Assembly (NCBI GenBank): GCA_937951485.1
Contig: CALEDJ010000018.1
Location: 1 to 64,000 of the forward strand
Source of the DNA: an uncultured bacterium
GTDB lineage: Bacteria; Hydrogenedentota; Hydrogenedentia; Hydrogenedentales; CAILVY01
Direction: 5' to 3'
Length of the DNA stretch: 64,000 nucleotides
Position numbers and translations under genes: made by a program. The first letter of the stretch is position 1; each line of letters begins with the position of its first letter. The notes below the pieces were generated by a model. It made no database searches and was not told the DNA's origin. It saw nothing but the letters and a program-made list of their open reading frames with translations. This document shows positions 38,820 to 50,024 of this stretch, in pieces.

Positions 38820-38897
38820 CGGGGCGTAGCGCAGCCCGGTTAGCGCGCTTGGTTTGGGACCAAGAGGTCGCGGGTTCGAATCCCGCCGCCCCGACCA
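38820..38897 (+). tRNA. tRNA-Pro (anticodon TGG)
   Basis: A full cloverleaf. Acceptor CGGGGCG pairs with CGCCCCG. The anticodon arm is CTTGG-TTTGGGA-CCAAG with anticodon TGG. The T arm is GCGGG-TTCGAAT-CCCGC. C1-G72 is the proline identity pair, and CCA is encoded. Confidence 0.97.
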
Positions 38898-39195: not shown

Positions 39196-40644
39196 ATGGC
39201 GTGTCGCCGTGAAGACGAGGGGTCGGGAGCCGATTTGCGGAGAATCCAGTCACAGCGTGGGCATGGGGAGCCGCCGCTTTTTCACAAGCAACTCGTGGGG
39301 AAACGCCTGTATATCAATGCGCAAGTGCGTTTTCTTGTGACGGCGGGGATCGTGCTGGGTGCGCTGGGAGGCAAGTATGTGCTGGGGGTGGAGAATCTTG
39401 ATATTCCCAGTCTGATTCTGCTCGCGGCATTGTTGGCTGGATTCAACATCGGGGTGTTTGTTTTTGCACGCCGTCACCGGAATTTGGAGCGGCGGCTTCC
39501 CGCGTACCGGTTGGTGATGGGGCTGACCCATGTGACCATTGGTGTGGATTTCGTCTTTCTCACGGTCGCCCTGTGGCTTGTAGGGGGAGCCAAATCGCCG
39601 TTCCAGGCTTTCTATCTGCTGCATGTTGTGCTGGCGGCCATCCTGTTGTCGTCCAGGGCGGCCTATGCCCACGCGGCCTTCGGCTACACGCTCTTCGCAT
39701 TGCTGGTGCTGGGTGAGTGGACGGGGTTCCTGCCGATGCGTTTTCCAGTAGGGGTCGTAAACAGCGCCATGCCGCTGGATGGCCGCTTCGTAATCACAGT
39801 TCTGGTGGTGCAGGCGATGCTGATGGCGCTCGCGGTGTATCTGGTGACGGGGCTTACGGACCTGCTTCGCCGGGGCGAACTACAGTTACGGGAGACCAAT
39901 ACGGAGTTGGAGCGCTTGTCGCAAATCCAGCGGGATTTCCTGCATATTGCGCTGCACGATTTGAAATCGCCCATCAACGCGGCCACGATGCTGCTGCAAA
40001 GCATGAAGATCGCGGCGGAGCCGCCGTTGTCGCTGCAGCAAATTGGCTGGCTGGATCGGATTCATGTGCGCCTGAGCGATGCCTCGTCGTTCCTGCATGA
40101 TTTCAGCATATTGGCTGCGCTGGACGCGGCGGATATGGAGCGCCAGGCGGAGGTTCTGGATATTGGGTCGCTGGTGGATGCCGCTATCGAGGAGAACCAG
40201 GATATGATCCGCGCGCACGGGCACAGGCTCGAGGTGGAGATCGTGGACAACCTGCCGCCGACGCGGGGCATCAAGCGATTGGTTCATGAGGCGGTCAACA
40301 ACCTGATCACAAACGCAGACAAATATACGCCGGCCAAGGGTCGTATTGCCGTGCGGGTGCGGCAAAACGGAAATATGATCCGGATCGAAGTGGAAGACAA
40401 TGGAATCGGCATTGCGCCGGAGGATCAGGCGCGTCTTTTTCAGGCGTTTGTGCGCATCAAACGCAAAGAAGGCGCAGCCTCAGAGGTCAGCGGGAGCGGA
40501 CTGGGTCTGTCTATCGTGCGCCGCGTCGCAGAATTGCATGGCGGGAGCGTCGGGGTCAAGAGCGAACTGAACAAGGGCAGCACATTCTCGCTTGAATTGC
40601 CGATATGCTCCGAACACAGCACACCGGATGGCACATCCCTTTGA
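39196..40644 (+). CDS. Orphan membrane sensor histidine kinase
   Basis: A 482-residue protein. About six hydrophobic segments (45-225) form a membrane sensor without a large periplasmic loop. A coiled-coil linker and HisKA domain follow (phosphoacceptor His254 in LHIALHDLKSPI), then the ATPase: HEAVNNLITNADKYT (N box), DNGIGIAP (G1), LFQAFVR (F), GSGLGLSIV (G2). GGAGGG lies 9 nt before ATG 39196. No response regulator is adjacent. It converges on the Hdr-Mvh operon with only 17 nt between stops, so a functional link is unproven. Confidence 0.9.
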   Translation: MACRREDEGSGADLRRIQSQRGHGEPPLFHKQLVGKRLYINAQVRFLVTAGIVLGALGGKYVLGVENLDIPSLILLAALLAGFNIGVFVFARRHRNLERRLPAYRLVMGLTHVTIGVDFVFLTVALWLVGGAKSPFQAFYLLHVVLAAILLSSRAAYAHAAFGYTLFALLVLGEWTGFLPMRFPVGVVNSAMPLDGRFVITVLVVQAMLMALAVYLVTGLTDLLRRGELQLRETNTELERLSQIQRDFLHIALHDLKSPINAATMLLQSMKIAAEPPLSLQQIGWLDRIHVRLSDASSFLHDFSILAALDAADMERQAEVLDIGSLVDAAIEENQDMIRAHGHRLEVEIVDNLPPTRGIKRLVHEAVNNLITNADKYTPAKGRIAVRVRQNGNMIRIEVEDNGIGIAPEDQARLFQAFVRIKRKEGAASEVSGSGLGLSIVRRVAELHGGSVGVKSELNKGSTFSLELPICSEHSTPDGTSL

Positions 40645-40661: not shown

Positions 40662-42119
40662 TTACTTGCGCAAGGTCTGAAGCAGGCGGCGTTCCCTATC
40701 AAATATTTTCACTTCGAGCGGCGTCTTACCGAGCGCGTGCGTGGCGCAGGCATGGCAGGGATCGTAGGCGCGGAAGGCCATTTCGACCATGTTTAACAGG
40801 CCATCGTTGACATTGCCGTTCCGGATCATGCCTTTTGCCGCCTTGTCCACGGACATGGCGATGGGCGCGGCGTTGTGATTGGTGGCGACGATCAGGTTGA
40901 CGCGGGTGAGGATGCCGTCCTGATCCGTCCAGTAGTGGTGGATGAGGGTGCCGCGCGGCGCTTCAACGATGCCGACGCCTTCCCCGGGAATCTCCACAGG
41001 CACGGTGCGAATTTGCGGGCTTGTGATTTCCGGGTCTTCCAGGAGTTCCTTCATGCGTTCGGCGGCGTAGAGCGCCTCGATGAGGCGCGCCCAATGGGTG
41101 GCCAGCGTGCAGTGGGCTGGTTTGCCGCCGAGCACTTCATACATGCGTTCGTAGGCTTCCTGGGCGAGCGGGGTGGCCATGCCGGCGGCGGCGTTCAGGC
41201 GGGCGAGCGGCGCGACGCGGTAGATGCCGCTGGCGGAACCATCGGTGAACCCTTTCCAGCCCACGTTTTTCAGAAAAGGAAAGGTGATGTAGGTCCACGG
41301 TTCAACGTGTTCCGCGATATGCCGGGGATAATCTCTGGGGGCGAATCTGGCGAATTCGACGCCGTCAGGGTCCACGACGCGGACCATGCCGTCGTAGAAA
41401 TTGACCCTGTTCTTCTCATCCACCAGGCCCATATAGTAGGTCTTGTGGGCGTATGCGTCGTTGAGAATGAGGTCTACGTAATCCCGGTTTGCCAGCACGA
41501 CATCATTGAAGAGTTGCAGGGTGAACTGGGCAAAGTCCACGGCGAAGCCCGCGGTCTCCAGAAATTTGCGCCGTTCTTCGTCGGTGATGCCTTTGGATAC
41601 GCCGCCGGGCAGGCCGAACACCGGATGGATTGCCTTGCCCATCATCGTTTCGAGAATTTGCCGGCACTCGCGCCGCACCCGGATGACCTGCCCCGCAATG
41701 TTCAGCCCGACTTTCCCAATGACGCCGAGGATGTTGCGCTCTGCAGCGGGGGCCGTAGGCCCGACCACGAAATCCGGCCCCGCAAGGAAGAAGAAGTGGA
41801 TATAGTGGTCCTCGACCATGAAAGTGCTGTATGCCAGTTCACGGAGTTTTTTTGCGGCCGAGGGCGGTTCGACGCGCCACAGGTCGTCCAGACATTTGGT
41901 TGCGGCCATGTGATGCGCGGTGGGGCAAACGCCGCAGATGCGCGGCGTAATGCGGGGCATTTCCTCGGCGGGGCGGCCCAGGCAGAAGGTTTCGAAGCCC
42001 CGCAACTCCGGCACCTGGAAAAAGGTGCGCTCGACGTTGCCGGCATCATCGAGGAATATCTCAATCTTGCCGTGGCCTTCCAGGCGCGTGATCGGATTGA
42101 TGGTGATTCTTTTGCTCAT
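40662..42119 (-). CDS. mvhA: [NiFe]-hydrogenase large subunit, MvhA-type (group 3)
   Basis: A 485-residue catalytic subunit. Nickel ligands are in RICGVCPTAHH (Cys62, Cys65) and DPCHACATH (Cys455, Cys458, His461). Twenty-four residues follow His461; in processed hydrogenases such a tail is cleaved after nickel insertion. The sequence fits cytosolic methyl-viologen-reducing (group 3c-like) enzymes. Last gene of the operon; it overlaps mvhG by 4 nt. No hyp maturation gene or dedicated endopeptidase is in the window. Confidence 0.93.
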   Translation of the reverse strand: MSKRITINPITRLEGHGKIEIFLDDAGNVERTFFQVPELRGFETFCLGRPAEEMPRITPRICGVCPTAHHMAATKCLDDLWRVEPPSAAKKLRELAYSTFMVEDHYIHFFFLAGPDFVVGPTAPAAERNILGVIGKVGLNIAGQVIRVRRECRQILETMMGKAIHPVFGLPGGVSKGITDEERRKFLETAGFAVDFAQFTLQLFNDVVLANRDYVDLILNDAYAHKTYYMGLVDEKNRVNFYDGMVRVVDPDGVEFARFAPRDYPRHIAEHVEPWTYITFPFLKNVGWKGFTDGSASGIYRVAPLARLNAAAGMATPLAQEAYERMYEVLGGKPAHCTLATHWARLIEALYAAERMKELLEDPEITSPQIRTVPVEIPGEGVGIVEAPRGTLIHHYWTDQDGILTRVNLIVATNHNAAPIAMSVDKAAKGMIRNGNVNDGLLNMVEMAFRAYDPCHACATHALGKTPLEVKIFDRERRLLQTLRK

Positions 42120-43096
42120 AACGCCTCTTCTTTCTCAATGCAGCGCCGTTTCAAGAGGGATGCCGGAAGGCTGAAACGATACAGCGTGCCAATCGGGTCC
42201 GCCAGGGTGCCGGCGAGCGCCATTGCCGTTCCATCGGAATCCGCTTCGCCCAGCGTCCCCAACGCACCGAGCATCTTCGTTCCCATGTCCAACGCCCCGG
42301 GGGTCGGGCCAAAACATCCGCGACAGGGCATATTGCCGTGGATGCACCGCTCGCCGCAGCCGGACCGCGTGGCAGGTCCCATGCACACATAGCCTTGGGC
42401 GAGATAGCACCTGTCGGGTTCGGGCGTGCTCGTGGCCACGCGTTTGAACTCTTTGATGGCCAGGGTTTCTGGTTTAGTTTCGTTGAGGGGGCAGGACTCA
42501 CAGAGGGATTTTTCAGGGGCGAGCACGGATCCTTTCGGCGGCAGCGCGCCCTTCAGAATGGCATCCACGGCCTGTGCAACAAGCGCGGTCGGCGGGGGAC
42601 ATCCGGGAAGATAGTAGTCCACGTCAATGACAGCATCGAGCGGCTTGACGTCTTTCCAGAAAAGCGGAAGTTCCAATTCATAACCGTTGACCGTGCAGGC
42701 GGTGCGCGGTTCGACGCGGTTGGGGTTATCCACCGTGAGGCTTCGGTGGTACTTGTTGGCGAGGATTTCCTCGCGGGTGGTATCGTTGGCCAGCCCCGGA
42801 ATGCCGCCGAGATGCGCACAGGAACCAAACGCGATCACCAGGGGGCACTTTTCGCGAAGCAACCGGACCCATTCGTGTTGCTCGGACAACCGGACCGCAC
42901 CGTTGATGAACGCCACCGCGACTTCACCGGGTTGCCAGGTTTCGACATCCTTGAGTTTGAAGTCCAGCGCCACGGGCCACAGCGCGATGTCCACGGCTTC
43001 GACCACCTTGAGAATATCTTCTGCGAGATCCACCACCGTTTCTTCGCACCCCCCGCAAGAGGCGCACCAATAAAATGCTACTTTCGGCTTGGCCAT
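42116..43096 (-). CDS. mvhG: [NiFe]-hydrogenase small subunit, MvhG-type
   Basis: A 326-residue Fe-S subunit that takes electrons from MvhA. The proximal cluster motif is WCASCGGCEE (Cys11, Cys14, Cys17), with further cysteines in GSCAHLGG and YYLPGCPPP. Distal cysteines include SLCESCPLN, YVCMGPATRSGCGERC and CRGCFGP. There is no twin-arginine signal, so the enzyme is cytoplasmic, as expected for group 3. Starts 15 nt after mvhD. Confidence 0.93.
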   Translation of the reverse strand: MAKPKVAFYWCASCGGCEETVVDLAEDILKVVEAVDIALWPVALDFKLKDVETWQPGEVAVAFINGAVRLSEQHEWVRLLREKCPLVIAFGSCAHLGGIPGLANDTTREEILANKYHRSLTVDNPNRVEPRTACTVNGYELELPLFWKDVKPLDAVIDVDYYLPGCPPPTALVAQAVDAILKGALPPKGSVLAPEKSLCESCPLNETKPETLAIKEFKRVATSTPEPDRCYLAQGYVCMGPATRSGCGERCIHGNMPCRGCFGPTPGALDMGTKMLGALGTLGEADSDGTAMALAGTLADPIGTLYRFSLPASLLKRRCIEKEEAL

Positions 43097-43111
43097 GGCA
43101 TGTCCTGACCT

Positions 43112-43555
43112 CTATGCGCTTTCACTGAGCGCCGCCACCCGTTCCTCCCAGCGGAGCGGGCCGAGCGCGCGCACCTGTTCCGTAAATTCCTTCACCAAGG
43201 CGGCGAACTGTTCGCCTTCCGACGCAGACACCCATTCCAGACGGAGCCGCGCCGGTTCAATACCGAACTGAGAGAGCAGATTTTTGAGCATCGGGACCCG
43301 GCGCATGGCTTTGTAGTTGCCCTCAAGATAGTGGCAGTCGCCGGGGTGACACCCCGCGATGAGGACGCCGTCGGCCCCGTCCGCAAAGGCCTTTACCACG
43401 AAGGTGGGATCCACGCGACCGGAGCACATCACGCGGACGGCGACCACATTGGAAGGATACTGGACGCGACTCGTTCCCGCGAGGTCCGCTCCCGTATAAG
43501 AACACCAGCGACACAGAAATCCCACGATTTTCGGTTCAAAAGACGCCTCTTCCAC
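43112..43555 (-). CDS. mvhD: MvhD/FlpD-type [2Fe-2S] electron-transfer subunit
   Basis: A 147-residue protein with the five MvhD cysteines: FLCRWCSYTGADLAG (Cys15, Cys18), VMCSGRVDP (Cys44), IAGCHPGDCHY (Cys69, Cys74). MvhD links a hydrogenase (or formate dehydrogenase) to HdrA. The start is GTG at 43555, preceded by GAGGGAG and only 5 nt after the previous stop. Its place between the HdrA C-half gene and mvhG fits the bridging role. Confidence 0.92.
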   Translation of the reverse strand: MEEASFEPKIVGFLCRWCSYTGADLAGTSRVQYPSNVVAVRVMCSGRVDPTFVVKAFADGADGVLIAGCHPGDCHYLEGNYKAMRRVPMLKNLLSQFGIEPARLRLEWVSASEGEQFAALVKEFTEQVRALGPLRWEERVAALSESA

Positions 43556-43560
43556 GGCAT

Positions 43561-45375
43561 TTACTCCCTCAAAACCGGTTCAGTCTCCGGGTGCAAAATA
43601 CCCTCTATCTCGGCGTAAATCTGAACATCCTCGAAGTTCCGTTGTCGGGCCGCCCCGGAAGGACACGCGGCGACGCAGGTGCCGCAGCCCTTGCACAATT
43701 CTTCGATGACCCGGGAGATTTTCTTTTCTTCATCGAATTCGATGGCGACATAGGGGCAACTGGCGATGCAGATTTTGCAGCCCGCACAGAGTTTCTCATC
43801 TATCTCGCTGGTGATTGGTTCGAGCACCACTTTGCCGCCGTCGATCAGCGCCAATGCGCCCGCAGCGGCGGCGGCTCCCTGCGCCACGGCATCGGGGATG
43901 TCTTTGGGACCCTGACAGGCTCCGGCGAGGAATATCCCGTCGGAAGCGGTGTCCACCGGCGCGAGTTTCGGATGTTTTTCGAGATAGAACTGTCCCTGGG
44001 TGCAACTGAGCGAAAGCAGGCGGGCGAGTTCCTCCGCGCCTTGCGCCGGTTTGATTCCCGTCGAGAGGATCACCATGTCTACGGGAATGCGGCGCGTCAG
44101 ACCGAGCAGCGTATCTTCCCCGATGACGATGAGTTTGCCCTTTTCCTCGGGCGATTCCGCCGCATCGGTCACCTCGGCGGCCTTGCCCCGGATGAAATAG
44201 ACGCCTTCGGCGAGCAGCCGCTTGTAGAATTCCTCATAACCTTTTCCGAATGCGCGCATGTCAATGTAGAAGTTGTAGACATCAGCGTGCGTTTTCTCCC
44301 GGATGAGGTGTGCGAATTTGAGGGAATACATGCAGCATACACGTGAACAATATTTCTGATAGTTTTCGTCGCGGCTGCCGATGCAATGCAGAATGGCCAC
44401 GGATTGGGGCGGCGTGCCGTCTTTCTTCAGAACTTTACCGCCGGTCGGCCCGCTGGCGTGGCTGATCCGCTCAAATTCCAGCGCGCTCAGCACGTTATCG
44501 AAGCGTCCATAGCCGTATCGGACCAGTTGGCGGGCGTCGAAAAGTTGAAAGCCTGTGGCCACGACAATGGCGCCCACGTCCAATTCAACCATCTCGTCCT
44601 CCTGCGCATGCCGAATGGCCTTGGCCTCGCAATTGTCTTCGCAGACCTTGCAGCCGTTGGTCTTGAAATGCATGCAGGTGTGCTTGTCAATGACAGGCAC
44701 GCGCGGCACCGCCTGGGCGAATGGAATGTAAATTGGTTTGCGGTGTGTAAGACCTTCTTCAAATTCAAAGGGGATGCGTTGCGGCACATGTTCCCAAATC
44801 CGGTGATGCTCGATGGCGCCGGTGGGACAGATCGAACTGCACGCACCGCAGGTCATGCAGACATCCGAAGGTTCGCCGAAGGGCGTGGTGACGCGCCGCC
44901 CGCCGCCGCGTCCCTCGAAACTGAGTGCGCCAATCTTCAGCACGTCATCGCAGAGGCGCACGCACATGCCGCAGAGGATACAGCCCTCCTCACCCACGAT
45001 GCTGCTCGGCTCGCCGACCGGTTTGCGGAAGCGGCTCTTTGTGACGTTGAATTGGGCGGCCAATTCCCGGATGACTTTCGAGTCCGGACATCGGGCCAGG
45101 AACAATTCCGCCAGCATTCTGCGGATGCGCATGACTTTTTCAGACTTGGTGTTGACTTCCATGCCCTCCGCCACCGGCAACGTGCACGATGAGACCAGCC
45201 TGGTCCTGCCTCGCTGCGTGACCTCAACGAGACAGATGCGGCATGACCCATAAGGCGGCAGCGATTCATGGTGGCATAGCGTTGGGATCTCGATGGCGGC
45301 GCCGCGCGCCGCGTTGAGGACCGTTGTGCCTGATTCCGTCCTCACGGTCTTGCCGTCAATCGTCAGTGTGATCAT
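43561..45375 (-). CDS. NuoG-type Fe-S N-terminus fused to HdrA C-terminal half
   Basis: A 604-residue hybrid. Residues 1-75 are a plant-type [2Fe-2S] domain (Cys34, Cys45, Cys48, Cys64). Residues 125-190 hold two [4Fe-4S] motifs (Cys132/135/138/142 and Cys173/176/179/183). The His-Cys3 cluster usual between them in NuoG/HydA is not present (LARCPDSKVIRELAAQF instead). From about 197, EFEEGLTHRKPIYIPFAQAV starts exactly where HdrA would continue after its first ferredoxin motif. Then come Cys234/242/245/249, the rest of the FAD domain (VVATGFQLFD, GIFLAGACQGP) and the C-terminal two-cluster ferredoxin. The N-terminal FAD Rossmann half is in the gene at 48568. Confidence 0.9.
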   Translation of the reverse strand: MITLTIDGKTVRTESGTTVLNAARGAAIEIPTLCHHESLPPYGSCRICLVEVTQRGRTRLVSSCTLPVAEGMEVNTKSEKVMRIRRMLAELFLARCPDSKVIRELAAQFNVTKSRFRKPVGEPSSIVGEEGCILCGMCVRLCDDVLKIGALSFEGRGGGRRVTTPFGEPSDVCMTCGACSSICPTGAIEHHRIWEHVPQRIPFEFEEGLTHRKPIYIPFAQAVPRVPVIDKHTCMHFKTNGCKVCEDNCEAKAIRHAQEDEMVELDVGAIVVATGFQLFDARQLVRYGYGRFDNVLSALEFERISHASGPTGGKVLKKDGTPPQSVAILHCIGSRDENYQKYCSRVCCMYSLKFAHLIREKTHADVYNFYIDMRAFGKGYEEFYKRLLAEGVYFIRGKAAEVTDAAESPEEKGKLIVIGEDTLLGLTRRIPVDMVILSTGIKPAQGAEELARLLSLSCTQGQFYLEKHPKLAPVDTASDGIFLAGACQGPKDIPDAVAQGAAAAAGALALIDGGKVVLEPITSEIDEKLCAGCKICIASCPYVAIEFDEEKKISRVIEELCKGCGTCVAACPSGAARQRNFEDVQIYAEIEGILHPETEPVLRE

Positions 45376-45393
45376 GAATACCTCTCCTCAACG

Positions 45394-47271
45394 CTAATTA
45401 CGCAATACGGCGTTATATCTGCACATGTCATAGCAGACGCCGCACTTGGTGCACTTGGCCGGATCAATCGTGTGCGGCTGTTTCTGTTCGCCATGGATCG
45501 CCTCCGCGGCGCAGTTGCGTGCGCACAGCATGCACCCAGTACACTTCTCGGGGTCAATCGAATACGTCACAAGCGCCCTGCACACCCCTGCGGCGCACTT
45601 CCGATCGCGCACATGCGCTTCGTACTCTTCGGGGAAATAACGCAAGGTGGTCAACACGGGATTGGGCGCGGTGATGCCCAACTGACACAGCGACGCCTCG
45701 CTCACGACTTCCGCCACCTCCTCCAAAAGGGGGATGTCCTCCGGTTTTCCCTTGCCTTCGCAGATATCGGTCAAAATCATTCCCATTTGCACAATGCCTT
45801 CCCGACACGGGGTGCACTTGCCGCAGGATTCGTTTTCCAGGAATCGGGTGAAAAAGCGCGCAAAATCCACCATGCAGTTGTCTTCATCCATGACAATCAT
45901 GCCGCCGGATCCCATCATGGTGCCCGCTTCCACCAACTGATCGTAGTCAATCGGCAGGTCAAGATGGCGTTCGGCCAAAACGCCGCCGGAGGGGCCGCCC
46001 GTCTGCACGCCCTTGAGTTTCTTGCCGCCCTTCACGCCGCCGCCAATGTCGAATACGACCTGCCGCAGTGTTGCGCCCATCGGGACTTCGACCAGACCGG
46101 TATTGTTGACCTTGCCGACGAGCGAGAATATCTTCGTCCCCTTGCTGCCGCCCCATGGGCTTTTCGTCACATCCCCCGTGCCGATACGGGTGAACCAGTC
46201 CGCGCCTTTGTTGATGATCAAGGGGATGTTCGCCCATGTTTCGACATTGTTGAGATTGGACGGTCGGTCCCACAGCCCGCTTTCCACGGTGTGGATATGT
46301 TTTGCGCGCGGCTCGCCGACGCGTCCTTCAATTGAAGCCATCAATGCGGTGGATTCGCCGCAGACGAAGGCCCCGCCGCCGCGGACGATGCTGATGTCAA
46401 AGCGCAGCCCCGTGCCGAGAATGTTTTCGCCAAGCAATCCCATCGCTCGCGCGTCGTTGACCGCCTGCGCCATAAGGTCAACAGCGAGCGGGTATTCAGT
46501 GCGCACATACACATAGCCCTCCAACGCGCCGATGGCATATGCGCCGATAATCATGCCTTCGACAACGCTGTGCGGGTTGCCCTCCAGGAGACTGCGGTTC
46601 GCATAAGCGCCCGGATCACCCTCGTCGGCGTTGCATATCACGTATTTGTGATTCCCCGGGGCTTTGCGGCACGAGGCCCATTTCACCCCTGCGGGAAAGC
46701 CCGCCCCGCCGCGCCCGCGCAGGCCGGACCGCGTGACTTCCTCGATGATTTGCTCAGGGGTCATGCGCGTCAGCGCTTTTACGAGAGCGCTGTACCCGCC
46801 GATGCGGAGGTAGTCGTCAATGCTGCGGGGATCGAGTTCAAGATTCGCACCGAAAATCAGCCGGGTCTGCCGCTTATAAAAGGGGATGTCATCCTGTTTC
46901 TCGAAGATGCGCCCGCTCGCGTCCTTGTAGAACAGCCGTTCAATGCGTTCGCCGTTCAGGACCGTCTTCTCTACGATTTCTTCGGCGTCGTCGGGCGTCA
47001 CCGACACATACAAGAGCCTTTCCGGCAACAGCACCACCAGGGGGCCCTGCTCGCAGAAGCCATGGCAACCGGTAATCCGAAGCCCTACCTTATGGTCCAG
47101 TTCGTGTTTTGCCAGAACTTCGCGAAACGCGGCTATCACTTCGCCCGCCGCGTTGGCCAGACACCCCGTACCCCCGCAAATGAGGATACAGGGGCGCTGG
47201 GGATCGTACATGCCGATGAGGCGTTCCCGGTAGGCGGCGACTTGTTCAGGAGTTTTCAATGTGGCTGGCAT
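45394..47271 (-). CDS. NuoF/HydB-type NADH:FMN oxidoreductase subunit
   Basis: A 625-residue flavoprotein like HydB/HndC of bifurcating hydrogenases. An N-terminal thioredoxin-like [2Fe-2S] domain has Cys32, Cys37, Cys69 and Cys73. The NuoF core has GRGGAGFPAG (FMN/NADH glycine loop, 186-195) and CNADEGDPGA. The [4Fe-4S] site is ESCGKCTPCREG, and the C-terminus is a two-cluster ferredoxin (CTGCMLCARNC, CTKCGVCYDMC). It is predicted to exchange hydride electrons with NAD(H). It lies between the two genes carrying the HdrA halves, 7 and 18 nt from them. Confidence 0.93.
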   Translation of the reverse strand: MPATLKTPEQVAAYRERLIGMYDPQRPCILICGGTGCLANAAGEVIAAFREVLAKHELDHKVGLRITGCHGFCEQGPLVVLLPERLLYVSVTPDDAEEIVEKTVLNGERIERLFYKDASGRIFEKQDDIPFYKRQTRLIFGANLELDPRSIDDYLRIGGYSALVKALTRMTPEQIIEEVTRSGLRGRGGAGFPAGVKWASCRKAPGNHKYVICNADEGDPGAYANRSLLEGNPHSVVEGMIIGAYAIGALEGYVYVRTEYPLAVDLMAQAVNDARAMGLLGENILGTGLRFDISIVRGGGAFVCGESTALMASIEGRVGEPRAKHIHTVESGLWDRPSNLNNVETWANIPLIINKGADWFTRIGTGDVTKSPWGGSKGTKIFSLVGKVNNTGLVEVPMGATLRQVVFDIGGGVKGGKKLKGVQTGGPSGGVLAERHLDLPIDYDQLVEAGTMMGSGGMIVMDEDNCMVDFARFFTRFLENESCGKCTPCREGIVQMGMILTDICEGKGKPEDIPLLEEVAEVVSEASLCQLGITAPNPVLTTLRYFPEEYEAHVRDRKCAAGVCRALVTYSIDPEKCTGCMLCARNCAAEAIHGEQKQPHTIDPAKCTKCGVCYDMCRYNAVLRN

Positions 47272-47278
47272 GGTGGTG

Positions 47279-48568
47279 TTATTCCTGTGTGTATCGCTTC
47301 AAGACTTTCTCAAGTTTGCTGCGATTCAGGTTTCCATGATATTTCCCGTCTATGACGATTACCGGAGAAAGGGCGCAGGCTCCGAGACAATTCACAGTCT
47401 CCAGCGTGAATTTGAGGTCTTTGGTCGTCTCTCCCGCTTTAATTTCCAGGCGCTCCCCCAGGGCGTCCAGCAGGCGCTGCGCGCCGCGAATATGGCAGGA
47501 CGTGCCGACACAGACCTTGACGGCATGCTCGCCGCGCGGCGTCAGGCTGAATGCGGTGTAGAAGGTGGCAACGTGATATACACGCGAAAGCGGCAGCCCA
47601 AGCCGCCGGCTGATGTACTTGAGCGCTTCGGGGGGCAGGTACCGGAATTCGAGATTGATGTCTTGCAGGACGGAGATCAACGGCGCGCGTTCGTGGCGGT
47701 GGAGGTCCAAGGCTTTGTCAACGGCCACCTTCAATTCCGGGCGGATTTCCACCGGGACACGGCGGCGTGCATCGCCGTTTGTGGGCCGGTATTGCACGGG
47801 ACATCGCGTCATGCATTGGCCGCACCCCGTGCATTTCTTCTCGTCCACGTAGCGCGCCTTGCGTCGCACCTTGACCTTAAAGTTGCCGACATAGCCCGCG
47901 ACATGCTCAATTTCGGAGTAGGTCATCAGTTCGATGTTCTTGTGCTGTCCGACGGCGACCATTTTCGGGGTGAGGATGCAGGCGGCGCAATCGAGCGTAG
48001 GGAAGGTCTTGTCGAATTTCGCCATGTGGCCTCCGATGGAGGGTTCGCGCTCCACCAGATACACCTTCTTACCCGCGTCGGCCATTTTCAGGGCCGCTTC
48101 AATGCCGGCGATCCCCGCGCCCACCACCATGGCCTTCGGCTGTACGGCGACCTCCCGTTCTTCCATCGGCCTGTGGTGCTTTACGCGCCGAACAGCGGCA
48201 GCCACCAGGCGCTTGGCTTTCTCCGTGGCTTTTTCGTGGTCCATGTGTACCCAGGAGCATTGCTCCCGGATGTTGGACATCTGGAAGAGAAAGCGATTCA
48301 ATCCGGCGTCCTCGCAGACATTGCGGAAGGTGATCTCGTGCATCAAGGGGGAACAGGAAGAAACCACGACGCGGGTGAGTTGATGGTCCGCGATGTCTTT
48401 TTTGATCAATTCCTGGCCGGGACTGGAGCACATGTATTTGTACTCCTTGGTCACCACGACGCCGGGCAGGGTGCGGGCAAAGTCGGCGACCGCCGCCACG
48501 TCCACGGTTTGGGCGATGTTTGTGCCGCAATGGCAGATATAGACCCCGATACGTTCGTCGTTGTTCAT
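47279..48568 (-). CDS. HdrA N-terminal half fused to NuoE-like [2Fe-2S] domain
   Basis: A 429-residue hybrid. Residues 1-262 are HdrA: GVYICHCGTNI at the start, the FAD Rossmann motif VVGAGIAGIEAAL (148-160), DCAACILTPKM (193-203), and a ferredoxin motif Cys246/249/252/256. At about residue 262 the sequence switches to a NuoE/HydC-like thioredoxin-fold domain with Cys353, Cys358, Cys394 and Cys398. The missing HdrA part is in the gene at 43561-45375. ATG 48568 overlaps the hdrB stop (ATGA). It should dock the HdrA flavin to the NuoF-type diaphorase. Confidence 0.9.
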   Translation of the reverse strand: MNNDERIGVYICHCGTNIAQTVDVAAVADFARTLPGVVVTKEYKYMCSSPGQELIKKDIADHQLTRVVVSSCSPLMHEITFRNVCEDAGLNRFLFQMSNIREQCSWVHMDHEKATEKAKRLVAAAVRRVKHHRPMEEREVAVQPKAMVVGAGIAGIEAALKMADAGKKVYLVEREPSIGGHMAKFDKTFPTLDCAACILTPKMVAVGQHKNIELMTYSEIEHVAGYVGNFKVKVRRKARYVDEKKCTGCGQCMTRCPVQYRPTNGDARRRVPVEIRPELKVAVDKALDLHRHERAPLISVLQDINLEFRYLPPEALKYISRRLGLPLSRVYHVATFYTAFSLTPRGEHAVKVCVGTSCHIRGAQRLLDALGERLEIKAGETTKDLKFTLETVNCLGACALSPVIVIDGKYHGNLNRSKLEKVLKRYTQE

Positions 48569-49458
48569 GGGCATGCCACCTTTTCCGTCAGCAGCGCTTC
48601 CACGGGCGTGAGCGAATCCCGGAGCGCCAATGCGTCTTCTTCCAGTCCAAACGCATATCCCATCAACTGCGTGAAATACAGCACCGGGATGGCGCAGTCG
48701 CGCCCCATCACCGCGCTGACCTGGTGCTGATAGGCTTCCAGGTTCATCTGGCACAGCGGGCAACACGTCACTACACAGTCCGCCCCGGACTCCCTCGCCA
48801 GTTGCAGAATCTTCCCCGTGAGCGTCCGCCCCACCTCCGGTTGCGTTGTCATCATCAGTCCGCCGCAACACTTCGCCCGCAACGAGAACGGCACGGGGTC
48901 CGCACCCAGCCATTGCACCAATTGATCCAGGGACTGCGGATTTTCTTCGTCATCAATTTCTCCGAAAGGGCGACTGATCTGACATCCGTAGTAGCACGCC
49001 ACGCGCAATCCGGCAAGGGACCGGGTCGCGCGTCCGCGAATGGCGTCTTCGCCCGCATCATTCACGACAACATCCAGGAAATGGCGGACCCGGACGCTCC
49101 CCCGATAGGCCATGCCGCCCTTGGCAAGGGCCTGGCCAATCTCGGACCGCAGCCGCTCATTCTCCGCCATATACTTGTTCGCCTTGCGCAGCACCACGTA
49201 GCAACCGCTGCATGGCGTAACCAAGTCGCGTTCCGAGCGCTCGGCAAGCGCCAGATTGCGCGCAGACAATACAAACGCCTGCTTTTCCCGAATGGCGACA
49301 TAGGCCGTCGCCCCGCAGCAGTTCCAATCCTCCAACTCGTTCAGTTCCAATCCCAGGGCATGCGCGACGCCCCGCGTCGAGATGTCGTAGGCTTTGTTGG
49401 TCGCCATTTGCGAGCAACCCGGATAGTACGTGTAGGTGTGTGCCGTCGCCGTGTTCAT
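48565..49458 (-). CDS. hdrB: Heterodisulfide reductase subunit B
   Basis: A 297-residue protein with two CCG domains: Cys15, Cys47-Cys48, Cys83, Cys86; and Cys155, Cys197-Cys198, Cys232-Cys233, Cys236. In HdrB these bind two non-cubane [4Fe-4S] clusters that cleave a disulfide. No methanogen-type genes are here, so the natural disulfide (DsrC-like, low-molecular thiol, or other) is unknown. It overlaps hdrC and the HdrA-N gene by 4 nt on each side. Confidence 0.94.
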   Translation of the reverse strand: MNTATAHTYTYYPGCSQMATNKAYDISTRGVAHALGLELNELEDWNCCGATAYVAIREKQAFVLSARNLALAERSERDLVTPCSGCYVVLRKANKYMAENERLRSEIGQALAKGGMAYRGSVRVRHFLDVVVNDAGEDAIRGRATRSLAGLRVACYYGCQISRPFGEIDDEENPQSLDQLVQWLGADPVPFSLRAKCCGGLMMTTQPEVGRTLTGKILQLARESGADCVVTCCPLCQMNLEAYQHQVSAVMGRDCAIPVLYFTQLMGYAFGLEEDALALRDSLTPVEALLTEKVACP

Positions 49459-50024
49459 GGGGATGCGTTCTCCTCAATGGCCGCCATCATCTTGCGAAGT
49501 TCCTCCCGGCCCTTAATCCTGTGCGGCCGTAATCGCATCCGGCCCCGCGACAAGAGCCGAAGCCCCAGGATGACCTGGCTCAGAAATCGCAGTGGATTGG
49601 TGCGCAGGTAGTAATTCCGAATCAATTCCGGCTCGTGATTGCGCCCATAGCGGTCCACGGACGCCACAAACGCCTGCGCCATCACTGCATTCGTGGTCCC
49701 CTTCGGATACAACCCGTATTTCACCCCCAGACGCTTGAGTTCATACATTACGTCGGTAAACGGGATACCCGCCGGGCAGCGCACTGTGCAGGAGTAACAG
49801 GACGAACACAGCCACACCGTGTTGGACTTCAGCACCCGCTCCAGCATCCGCGCGCGCAACGCCGCGATTACCTCCCGAGGACTGTATTCCATTGCCGTCG
49901 CCGTCGGACACGACGCTGAACAGGTCCCGCATTGCAGACACTCATTGATCTTCGATCCATTCGGAATTGCGCAAATCTTCCGCAGGAACACGTCGCAAAG
50001 ATCTTTAGACGCCGCCGCTTCCAT
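49455..50024 (-). CDS. hdrC: Heterodisulfide reductase subunit C
   Basis: A 189-residue iron-sulfur protein with two [4Fe-4S] motifs (Cys29/32/35/39 and Cys73/76/79/83) that relays electrons from HdrA to HdrB. No membrane helix (unlike HdrE/DsrM partners), so the complex is cytosolic. ATG 50024 has GGAGG 6 nt upstream. First gene of the eight-gene operon. A small inverted repeat, CTTGTGACAAG, lies about 60 nt upstream (50082-50092) and could be an operator. Confidence 0.93.
   Translation of the reverse strand: MEAAASKDLCDVFLRKICAIPNGSKINECLQCGTCSASCPTATAMEYSPREVIAALRARMLERVLKSNTVWLCSSCYSCTVRCPAGIPFTDVMYELKRLGVKYGLYPKGTTNAVMAQAFVASVDRYGRNHEPELIRNYYLRTNPLRFLSQVILGLRLLSRGRMRLRPHRIKGREELRKMMAAIEENASP

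Follow-up and report, generated by a model that had tools for sequence, protein, structure and literature searches.

Type I HdrA reduces ferredoxin at its inserted ferredoxin domain, and in the methanogen protein two residues, E356 and K409, are essential for bifurcation, K409 being located at N5 of the bifurcating flavin adenine dinucleotide (FAD) (PMC12054007). For type III HdrA, modelling puts the GltD insert at the ferredoxin domain, where it may block ferredoxin and bring nicotinamide adenine dinucleotide, NAD(H) (PMC12054007). HdrA is also contained in Bam-Bfu, for which it has been proposed that Bfu feeds HdrA and that there are two bifurcation sites (PMC9304861). Here we describe an operon of eight genes on the minus strand, at 50024-40662, of a 64,000-nucleotide stretch of DNA, hereafter the window (contig CALEDJ010000018.1, positions 1 to 64,000, assembly GCA_937951485.1), from an uncultured bacterium of the phylum Hydrogenedentota. 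To judge from alignment to HdrA, two of its products, HdrA-N::NuoE and NuoG'::HdrA-C, are complementary halves of a single HdrA, and nuoE-nuoF-nuoG' fills the cut. The genes are, in order:

50024-49455, minus strand: hdrC, HdrC-like subunit (NCBIfam CoB_CoM_SS_C 9e-23, under the curated cut-off), with two CxxCxxCxxxC motifs, CLQCGTCSASC and CSSCYSCTVRC
49458-48565, minus strand: hdrB, HdrB-like subunit (Pfam CCG twice; NCBIfam HdrB 1.2e-58, under the cut-off)
48568-47279, minus strand: HdrA-N::NuoE fusion, protein 3 (429 amino acids), with HdrA2 model positions 1-257 at residues 6-260 and 2Fe-2S_thioredx at 284-426
47271-45394, minus strand: nuoF (BfuB/HydB), the flavin mononucleotide (FMN)/NADH subunit, with an N-terminal [2Fe-2S] domain and a C-terminal two-[4Fe-4S] domain
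45375-43561, minus strand: NuoG'::HdrA-C fusion, protein 5 (604 amino acids), with Fer2_4 at 1-78 and HdrA2 model positions 253-644 at residues 197-597
43555-43112, minus strand: mvhD, GTG start (Pfam FlpD 3.6e-56; VhuD 7.7e-40), the [2Fe-2S] electron-transfer subunit between hydrogenase and HdrA
43096-42116, minus strand: mvhG, NiFe hydrogenase small subunit (Oxidored_q6 9e-23; VhuG 4.5e-58)
42119-40662, minus strand: mvhA, NiFe hydrogenase large subunit, 3c/Vhu-like (VhuA 1.1e-125), with the Ni-binding motifs RICGVC and DPCHAC

The intergenic distances are, in order, -4, -4, 7, 18, 5, 15 and -4 nucleotides. Every domain assigned to the eight proteins was recovered by Pfam and NCBIfam. The reading frame coordinates and these domains confirm a preliminary description of the locus as an eight-gene Hdr-Nuo-Mvh operon with overlaps or gaps of at most 18 nucleotides. 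On inspection, the cluster or catalytic motifs of HdrB, HdrC and MvhA are all intact; both CX~35CCGX~35CXXC motifs of HdrB are complete, and two non-cubane clusters are predicted.

One HdrA on two chains

The 777 positions of the HdrA2 model are covered once by the operon, with 1-257 in protein 3, 253-644 in protein 5 and 643-774 in MvhD, and it is because of this division that the two fusions are taken as parts of one protein. Against the solved HdrA chains (5odc, 8rvu), the alignment of protein 3 ends at about residue 260 or 268, where that of protein 5 begins. Among PDB entries, residues 4-260 of protein 3 match HdrA (8rvu/5odc) and residues 283-427 match HydC (8a6t_C, 4e-44); the HdrA-C part of protein 5 matches 5odc_A and 9mqx_A. 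The break falls within the inserted ferredoxin domain, immediately past its first CxxCxxCxxxC motif. Four sites are of particular importance (alignment A1 contains 14 sequences):

47833-47801, minus strand: first half of the ferredoxin domain, C246, C249, C252 and C256 of protein 3 (CxxCxxCxxxC in 15/15 relatives listed)
44676-44629, minus strand: second half of the ferredoxin domain, C234, C242, C245 and C249 of protein 5 (invariant in alignment A1)
44472-44470, minus strand: E302 of protein 5, equivalent to E356 of methanogen HdrA in the 5odc_A alignment (invariant in A1)
44319-44317, minus strand: K353 of protein 5, equivalent to K409 of methanogen HdrA in the 5odc_A alignment (invariant in A1)

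Each chain carries four of the eight cysteines of the ferredoxin domain, and all eight are conserved in every relative tested. Such joint conservation on two chains is expected only if the halves come together, and the best explanation of the sequences is that a single HdrA is rebuilt from the two fusion proteins. The FAD domain is likewise divided, with its Rossmann motif GAGIAG in protein 3 and E302 and K353 in protein 5. The preliminary description had placed an HdrA flavin core and an NADH module on a hydrogenase. The ligand motifs, E302 and K353 uphold this, but from the model coverage the fusions are halves of one HdrA. The CX7CX2CX3C spacing of the second ferredoxin motif was considered as a signature of the NuoEFG type and rejected, as many plain bacterial HdrAs share it.

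The inserted unit is of the Bfu type. The best PDB match of NuoF is 7t2r_B, subunit B of NiFe-HydABCSL (1.1e-227, residues 26-622), and the cysteines for clusters B1-B5 are all present (C32/37/69/73; C483/486/489/529; C559/564; C577-587; C607-617). By the criterion of PMC9304861, the B2 cysteines are absent from non-bifurcating NADH modules. The NuoE part carries the [2Fe-2S] ligands C353/358/394/398 of protein 3. The remaining component is:

45375-44791, minus strand: NuoG' (BfuA) part of protein 5, with [2Fe-2S] ligands C34/C45/C48/C64 and two [4Fe-4S] sites, C132-C142 and C173-C183

The ligands of its A1, A2 and A4 clusters are invariant in the 14 sequences of alignment A1, and there is no His-Cys3 motif; NuoG' lacks the A3 cluster and is, by its motifs, a short BfuA, 'Type 2' in the scheme of PMC9304861 (A1, A2 and A4 only). 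Judged by these ligands, NuoEF is a Bfu (HydABC-type) core with a proposed bifurcation centre of its own, not the NADH module of complex I. The complete NuoE/NuoF module noted earlier stands as regards its NADH/FMN subunits, but clusters B1-B5 mark it as a Bfu core and not as a plain complex I module. Since the fusions are halves of one HdrA cut at its ferredoxin exit, the likely wiring changes. The subunits, their complete cofactor ligand sets and the split of HdrA can be read directly from the sequence, as can the recurrence and exchange described below.

Recurrence of the split and exchange of the cassette

A search for HdrA-N/NuoE beside NuoF in other genomes, a check named in the preliminary description, turned up 14 more loci, spread over 12 other genomes and about six phyla, with NuoE and NuoF between the HdrA halves and, in several cases, Mvh genes continuing from them. 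This recurrence rules out chance or misassembly as the source of the split. The breadth outside the window's phylum, itself sampled as 68 species of a single order, was gauged from a single scan of 84,980 species genomes plus 100 relatives. The loci occur in Planctomycetota (L003-L007, L010 and L026), Krumholzibacteriota (L016), a deltaproteobacterial metagenome-assembled genome (MAG) listed under Myxococcota (L041), KSB1 (L069), genome G068 (L111 and L113) and the window's own phylum (L112 in genome G054, L114 in G056); L006 and L114 are interrupted by contig ends. NuoG'::HdrA-C is fused at every locus whose contig reaches it. HdrA-N and NuoE are separate genes in L016, L041, L069 and L113.

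At 11 other loci, three of them within the window's HdrA lineage, the same HdrA site holds, in an unbroken chain, a GltD-like NAD(P)H domain about 510 amino acids long, as in the type III HdrA of PMC12054007. Both kinds of insert are combined at the split-HdrA locus L113 (6869-9910), where the 1013-amino-acid NuoF carries a fused GltD-like NAD(P)H domain. At L049 (8959-14602) HdrA is split around NuoG' alone, without NuoE or NuoF, and is followed by MvhD, MvhG and MvhA; this is possibly an intermediate or a remnant. At L112 (147-10012) the split HdrA and NuoEFG are followed by MvhD, two Fer4 proteins and an FAD/NAD-binding protein resembling FlxDCBA, so that the predicted enzyme would have two different NAD(H) sites. 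The L004 cassette also holds DRTGG, CBS-HATPase and PHP-HATPase genes; accessory genes of this kind occur in HydABC operons.

The MAG Arabian11_MAG_18 (Phycisphaerae) has two such operons, L007 and L010. Identity between them is 88% for HdrC, 90% for HdrB, 88% for HdrA-N and 87% for HdrA-C, and 50, 52 and 47% for NuoE, NuoF and NuoG', respectively. It drops at residues 241-260 of protein 3, at the first cysteine motif, and in protein 5 is high again beyond about residue 250-280, after the second motif. In the NuoF tree, L007 falls with the window, L003 and L026, and L004 and L010 with L005, L006 and L113; in the HdrA trees, L007, L004 and L010 form a tight clade. Approximately unbiased (AU) tests, the p-values of which are indicative only because some of the groups were named after the tree had been seen, reject a NuoF constraint joining L007, L004 and L010 (p 8e-9), an HdrA grouping of the type-A carriers (p 2e-39; 5e-5 and 2e-8 for the halves singly) and, with these, the idea that the whole arrangement arose once and was passed on vertically.

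Both HdrA halves follow one history, unlike that of NuoF. In the HdrA tree L008, which carries GltD, is sister to L026, which carries NuoEFG, with moderate support, and L009 (GltD) is sister to L005 (NuoEFG). L085, a plain HdrA of the order to which the window belongs, falls inside the same clade. The L007/L010 swap pattern, the discordant trees, the GltD sisters and the plain L085 together indicate that the HdrA ferredoxin domain behaves as a socket which has been emptied and refilled. The NuoEFG cassette has been exchanged during evolution, which is to say that a large redox enzyme evolves by the swap of a three-gene module inside a single gene. L007 and L010, with the same Hdr lineage and different NuoEFG in one genome, make a natural swap pair for comparison.

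Proposed electron flow and its alternatives

The chances are about even that the eight genes encode one soluble H2:NAD(H)/ferredoxin/disulfide complex with two bifurcation sites in series. In this complex, the Bfu-type NuoE-NuoF-NuoG' unit would be attached to the inserted ferredoxin domain of HdrA. MvhAG would oxidise H2, and the electrons would pass via MvhD to the HdrA FAD. From there, one electron would go to HdrC/HdrB (the acceptor presumably a disulfide), and the other would reach NuoG' by way of the split ferredoxin domain. The low-potential electrons would then be split once more, at the FMN-FeS centre of NuoF, between NAD+ and ferredoxin. What we infer here is that the complex assembles and is wired in this way, that it takes up H2 at low H2 and that the acceptor is a disulfide. 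Counted from the motifs, with six clusters for HdrA, the complex would hold about 23 Fe-S clusters. All ligand motifs, with E302 and K353, support the combined Hdr-Nuo-Mvh complex of the preliminary description, with its HdrA FAD and FMN/NADH sites, NiFe hydrogenase and intact HdrBC. More tentatively, an FAD bifurcation may feed an FMN-FeS Bfu bifurcation through a two-chain ferredoxin domain and allow H2 near 1 Pa to reduce ferredoxin, this domain being a plug socket that exchanges modules (none, GltD or several NuoEFG lineages).

With two bifurcations in series, ferredoxin could be reduced at a lower H2 pressure. With potentials quoted in PMC9304861 (E' -500 mV for ferredoxin, -280 mV for NAD and -140 mV for heterodisulfide), the H2 pressure computed for equilibrium is about 0.9 Pa in the tandem, where 4 H2 would yield NADH and reduced ferredoxin along with two reduced disulfides; the corresponding values are 67 Pa in HdrABC-Mvh and 1.6e4 Pa in NiFe-Bfu. 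The identity of the disulfide matters, for at -250 mV the computed gain over HdrABC-Mvh vanishes. If the complex works as proposed, two of the four known chemistries of bifurcation would act one after the other within a single enzyme; this has been shown for no characterised complex (Bam is suspected of it). The complex would also explain how anaerobes could make reduced ferredoxin from H2 near 1 Pa, and what the HdrA ferredoxin exit can be wired to would become directly testable.

Several points weigh against the tandem complex. That electrons run through the split ferredoxin domain is an assumption carried over from ordinary HdrA, and the H2-pressure estimate uses the heterodisulfide potential of methanogens. 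AlphaFold single-chain models of the two fusion proteins (pLDDT, the predicted local distance difference test, 56 and 64; pTM, the predicted template modelling score, 0.38 and 0.47; alignments of 11 and 8 rows) are too weak for use. The hydrogenase is not in every version, as L111 stops after HdrA-C without Mvh and L112 has FlxDCBA-like genes instead. Finally, a search of the window's genome (4.55 Mb, about 94% complete) found DsrC absent, and DsrC was rejected as the disulfide partner.

The alternative that survives best, though we consider it unlikely, is modelled on type III HdrA, for which it has been proposed in conjunction with mvhADG (PMC12054007). NuoEFG would be an NAD(H) port replacing ferredoxin; the HdrA FAD would be the one bifurcation site, with NAD(H), H2/H+ and a disulfide as its partners, and ferredoxin would take no part. 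The L008/L026 and L009/L005 sisters agree with it, as the same socket in one HdrA lineage holds either GltD, a plain NAD(P)H domain, or NuoEFG, and NAD(P)(H) is what the two inserts have in common. However, NuoF retains all five Bfu clusters, the B2 cysteines and the ferredoxin-type pair at the C terminus among them.

Flow in the opposite, fermentative direction has a rather low probability. Here, NADH and reduced ferredoxin (with thiol) would be confurcated via NuoEFG and HdrA, and H2 formed at MvhA. Bfu enzymes are reversible, Bfu-to-HdrA flow was proposed in the Bam complex by Schut et al. 2022 (PMC9304861), and fermenting anaerobes need H2 outlets. The genome, however, already possesses several FeFe-hydrogenases over the cut-off (three strong matches beside BfuB genes, plus others) and a Hox-type NiFe enzyme; with thiol as an obligatory co-donor, moreover, H2 would be formed only below about 1 Pa, as computed.

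It is improbable that HdrBC passes its high-potential electrons to an acceptor other than a disulfide, for instance a methylene-tetrahydrofolate (THF) reductase, as in HdrABC-MetVF, or a membrane carrier. The lack of DsrC would fit, as would HdrABC-MvhD-MetVF of Moorella (PMC7325909, PMC5736913) and the presence together on contig 15 of MetF, formate-THF ligase (Fhs), carbon monoxide dehydrogenase (CODH) and another HdrB/HdrA pair, recognised by eye; but there is no metF beside the operon, and HdrB retains both complete CCG motifs. Two separate enzymes, an independent Bfu and Hdr-Mvh on a shared transcript with fusion proteins, are very improbable: although co-transcription alone is no proof of a complex and L049 and L111 retain parts of the set only, neither HdrA half seems functional alone, the FAD and ferredoxin domains being spread over two chains to which NuoE and NuoG' are fused, and the split is kept across about six phyla.

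Genomic setting and known systems

Next to the operon and just beyond it are found:

39196-40644, plus strand: membrane sensor histidine kinase (HATPase_c), convergent with the operon and ending 18 bases from mvhA
38820-38897, plus strand: tRNA-Pro (TGG), just past the kinase gene

Among the loci, the closest homologue of the kinase stands beside the split-HdrA/Flx-like operon L112 (45% identity); none of comparable identity was found beside the Planctomycetota operons. The kinase is possibly a regulator of the operon, not a part of the enzyme. The genome carries hypD (NiFe maturation); no rnfC was found in it over the cut-off, and Rnf was set aside as a candidate. It is unusually rich in Bfu-type enzymes, with eight further NuoF homologues, seven having Bfu-type extensions or fusions and one belonging to the Hox-type enzyme. 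The NuoF proteins of L131, L134 and L130 (contigs 51, 5 and 15) are 1027-1091 amino acids long, match NuoF only to about residue 568 and are probably NuoF::GltD fusions. L130 (2016-6626) also encodes a 1536-amino-acid protein with two HdrA-like units, which adjoins HdrB and a MetF-like gene near CODH/Fhs-like genes.

With HdrABC-MvhAGD of methanogens (group 3c NiFe) the operon shares all six subunits and their catalytic motifs, E356/K409 being kept as E302/K353. It departs from that system in that HdrA is broken at the ferredoxin exit into two chains; a Bfu subunit is fused to either chain, and a whole Bfu unit lies between them. The one-chain HdrA with a free ferredoxin-reducing domain is not found here. 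The Bam complex (BamB-I, class II benzoyl-CoA reductase) is likewise described as a single enzyme that contains HdrA, MvhD and a Bfu module. Its HdrA is an intact chain and its Bfu subunits are separate proteins. The catalytic partner there is a tungsten enzyme, whereas here it is the NiFe hydrogenase MvhA/MvhG; no tungsten BamB/BamC genes lie in 50024-40662.

The Bfu family (HydABC, NiFe-HydABCSL, Wor-Bfu; PMC9304861) is matched in BfuB with B1-B5, in BfuC and in a short BfuA with A1, A2 and A4. In the operon, however, BfuA is fused to HdrA-C and BfuC to HdrA-N, and the third substrate enters via HdrA. NiFe-HydABCSL has a BfuA with A3 (Type 3) and SL subunits without Hdr, whereas A3 is lacking here and HdrABC and MvhD are present. 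The main text of PMC9304861 names no Bfu type with HdrABC and MvhAGD. Desulfotignum phosphitoxidans has nuoEFG, mvhD and hdrA genes in putative transcription units (PMC4046663), but hdrA is reported beside nuoEFG, not around it, and no HdrABC-Mvh hydrogenase set is reported with them.

No description of an HdrA split around NuoEFG, with or without Mvh, was found in the literature searched, outside which lies the HdrA-module review of Appel et al. 2021 (it may mention related clusters). The early impression that no complex with this layout had been described thus holds for the exact layout but overlooks precedents, namely Bam (HdrA, MvhD and Bfu) and the NAD(P)H domain of type III HdrA; the parts and partial combinations are already known. 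The type III HdrA, or HdrL (PMC12054007, PMC12142623), has its insert at the same ferredoxin domain, and it too brings NAD(P)H. There, one GltD domain lies in an unbroken chain, whereas in the window a three-gene cassette splits HdrA and contributes FMN, the five clusters of BfuB and a ferredoxin-linked core.

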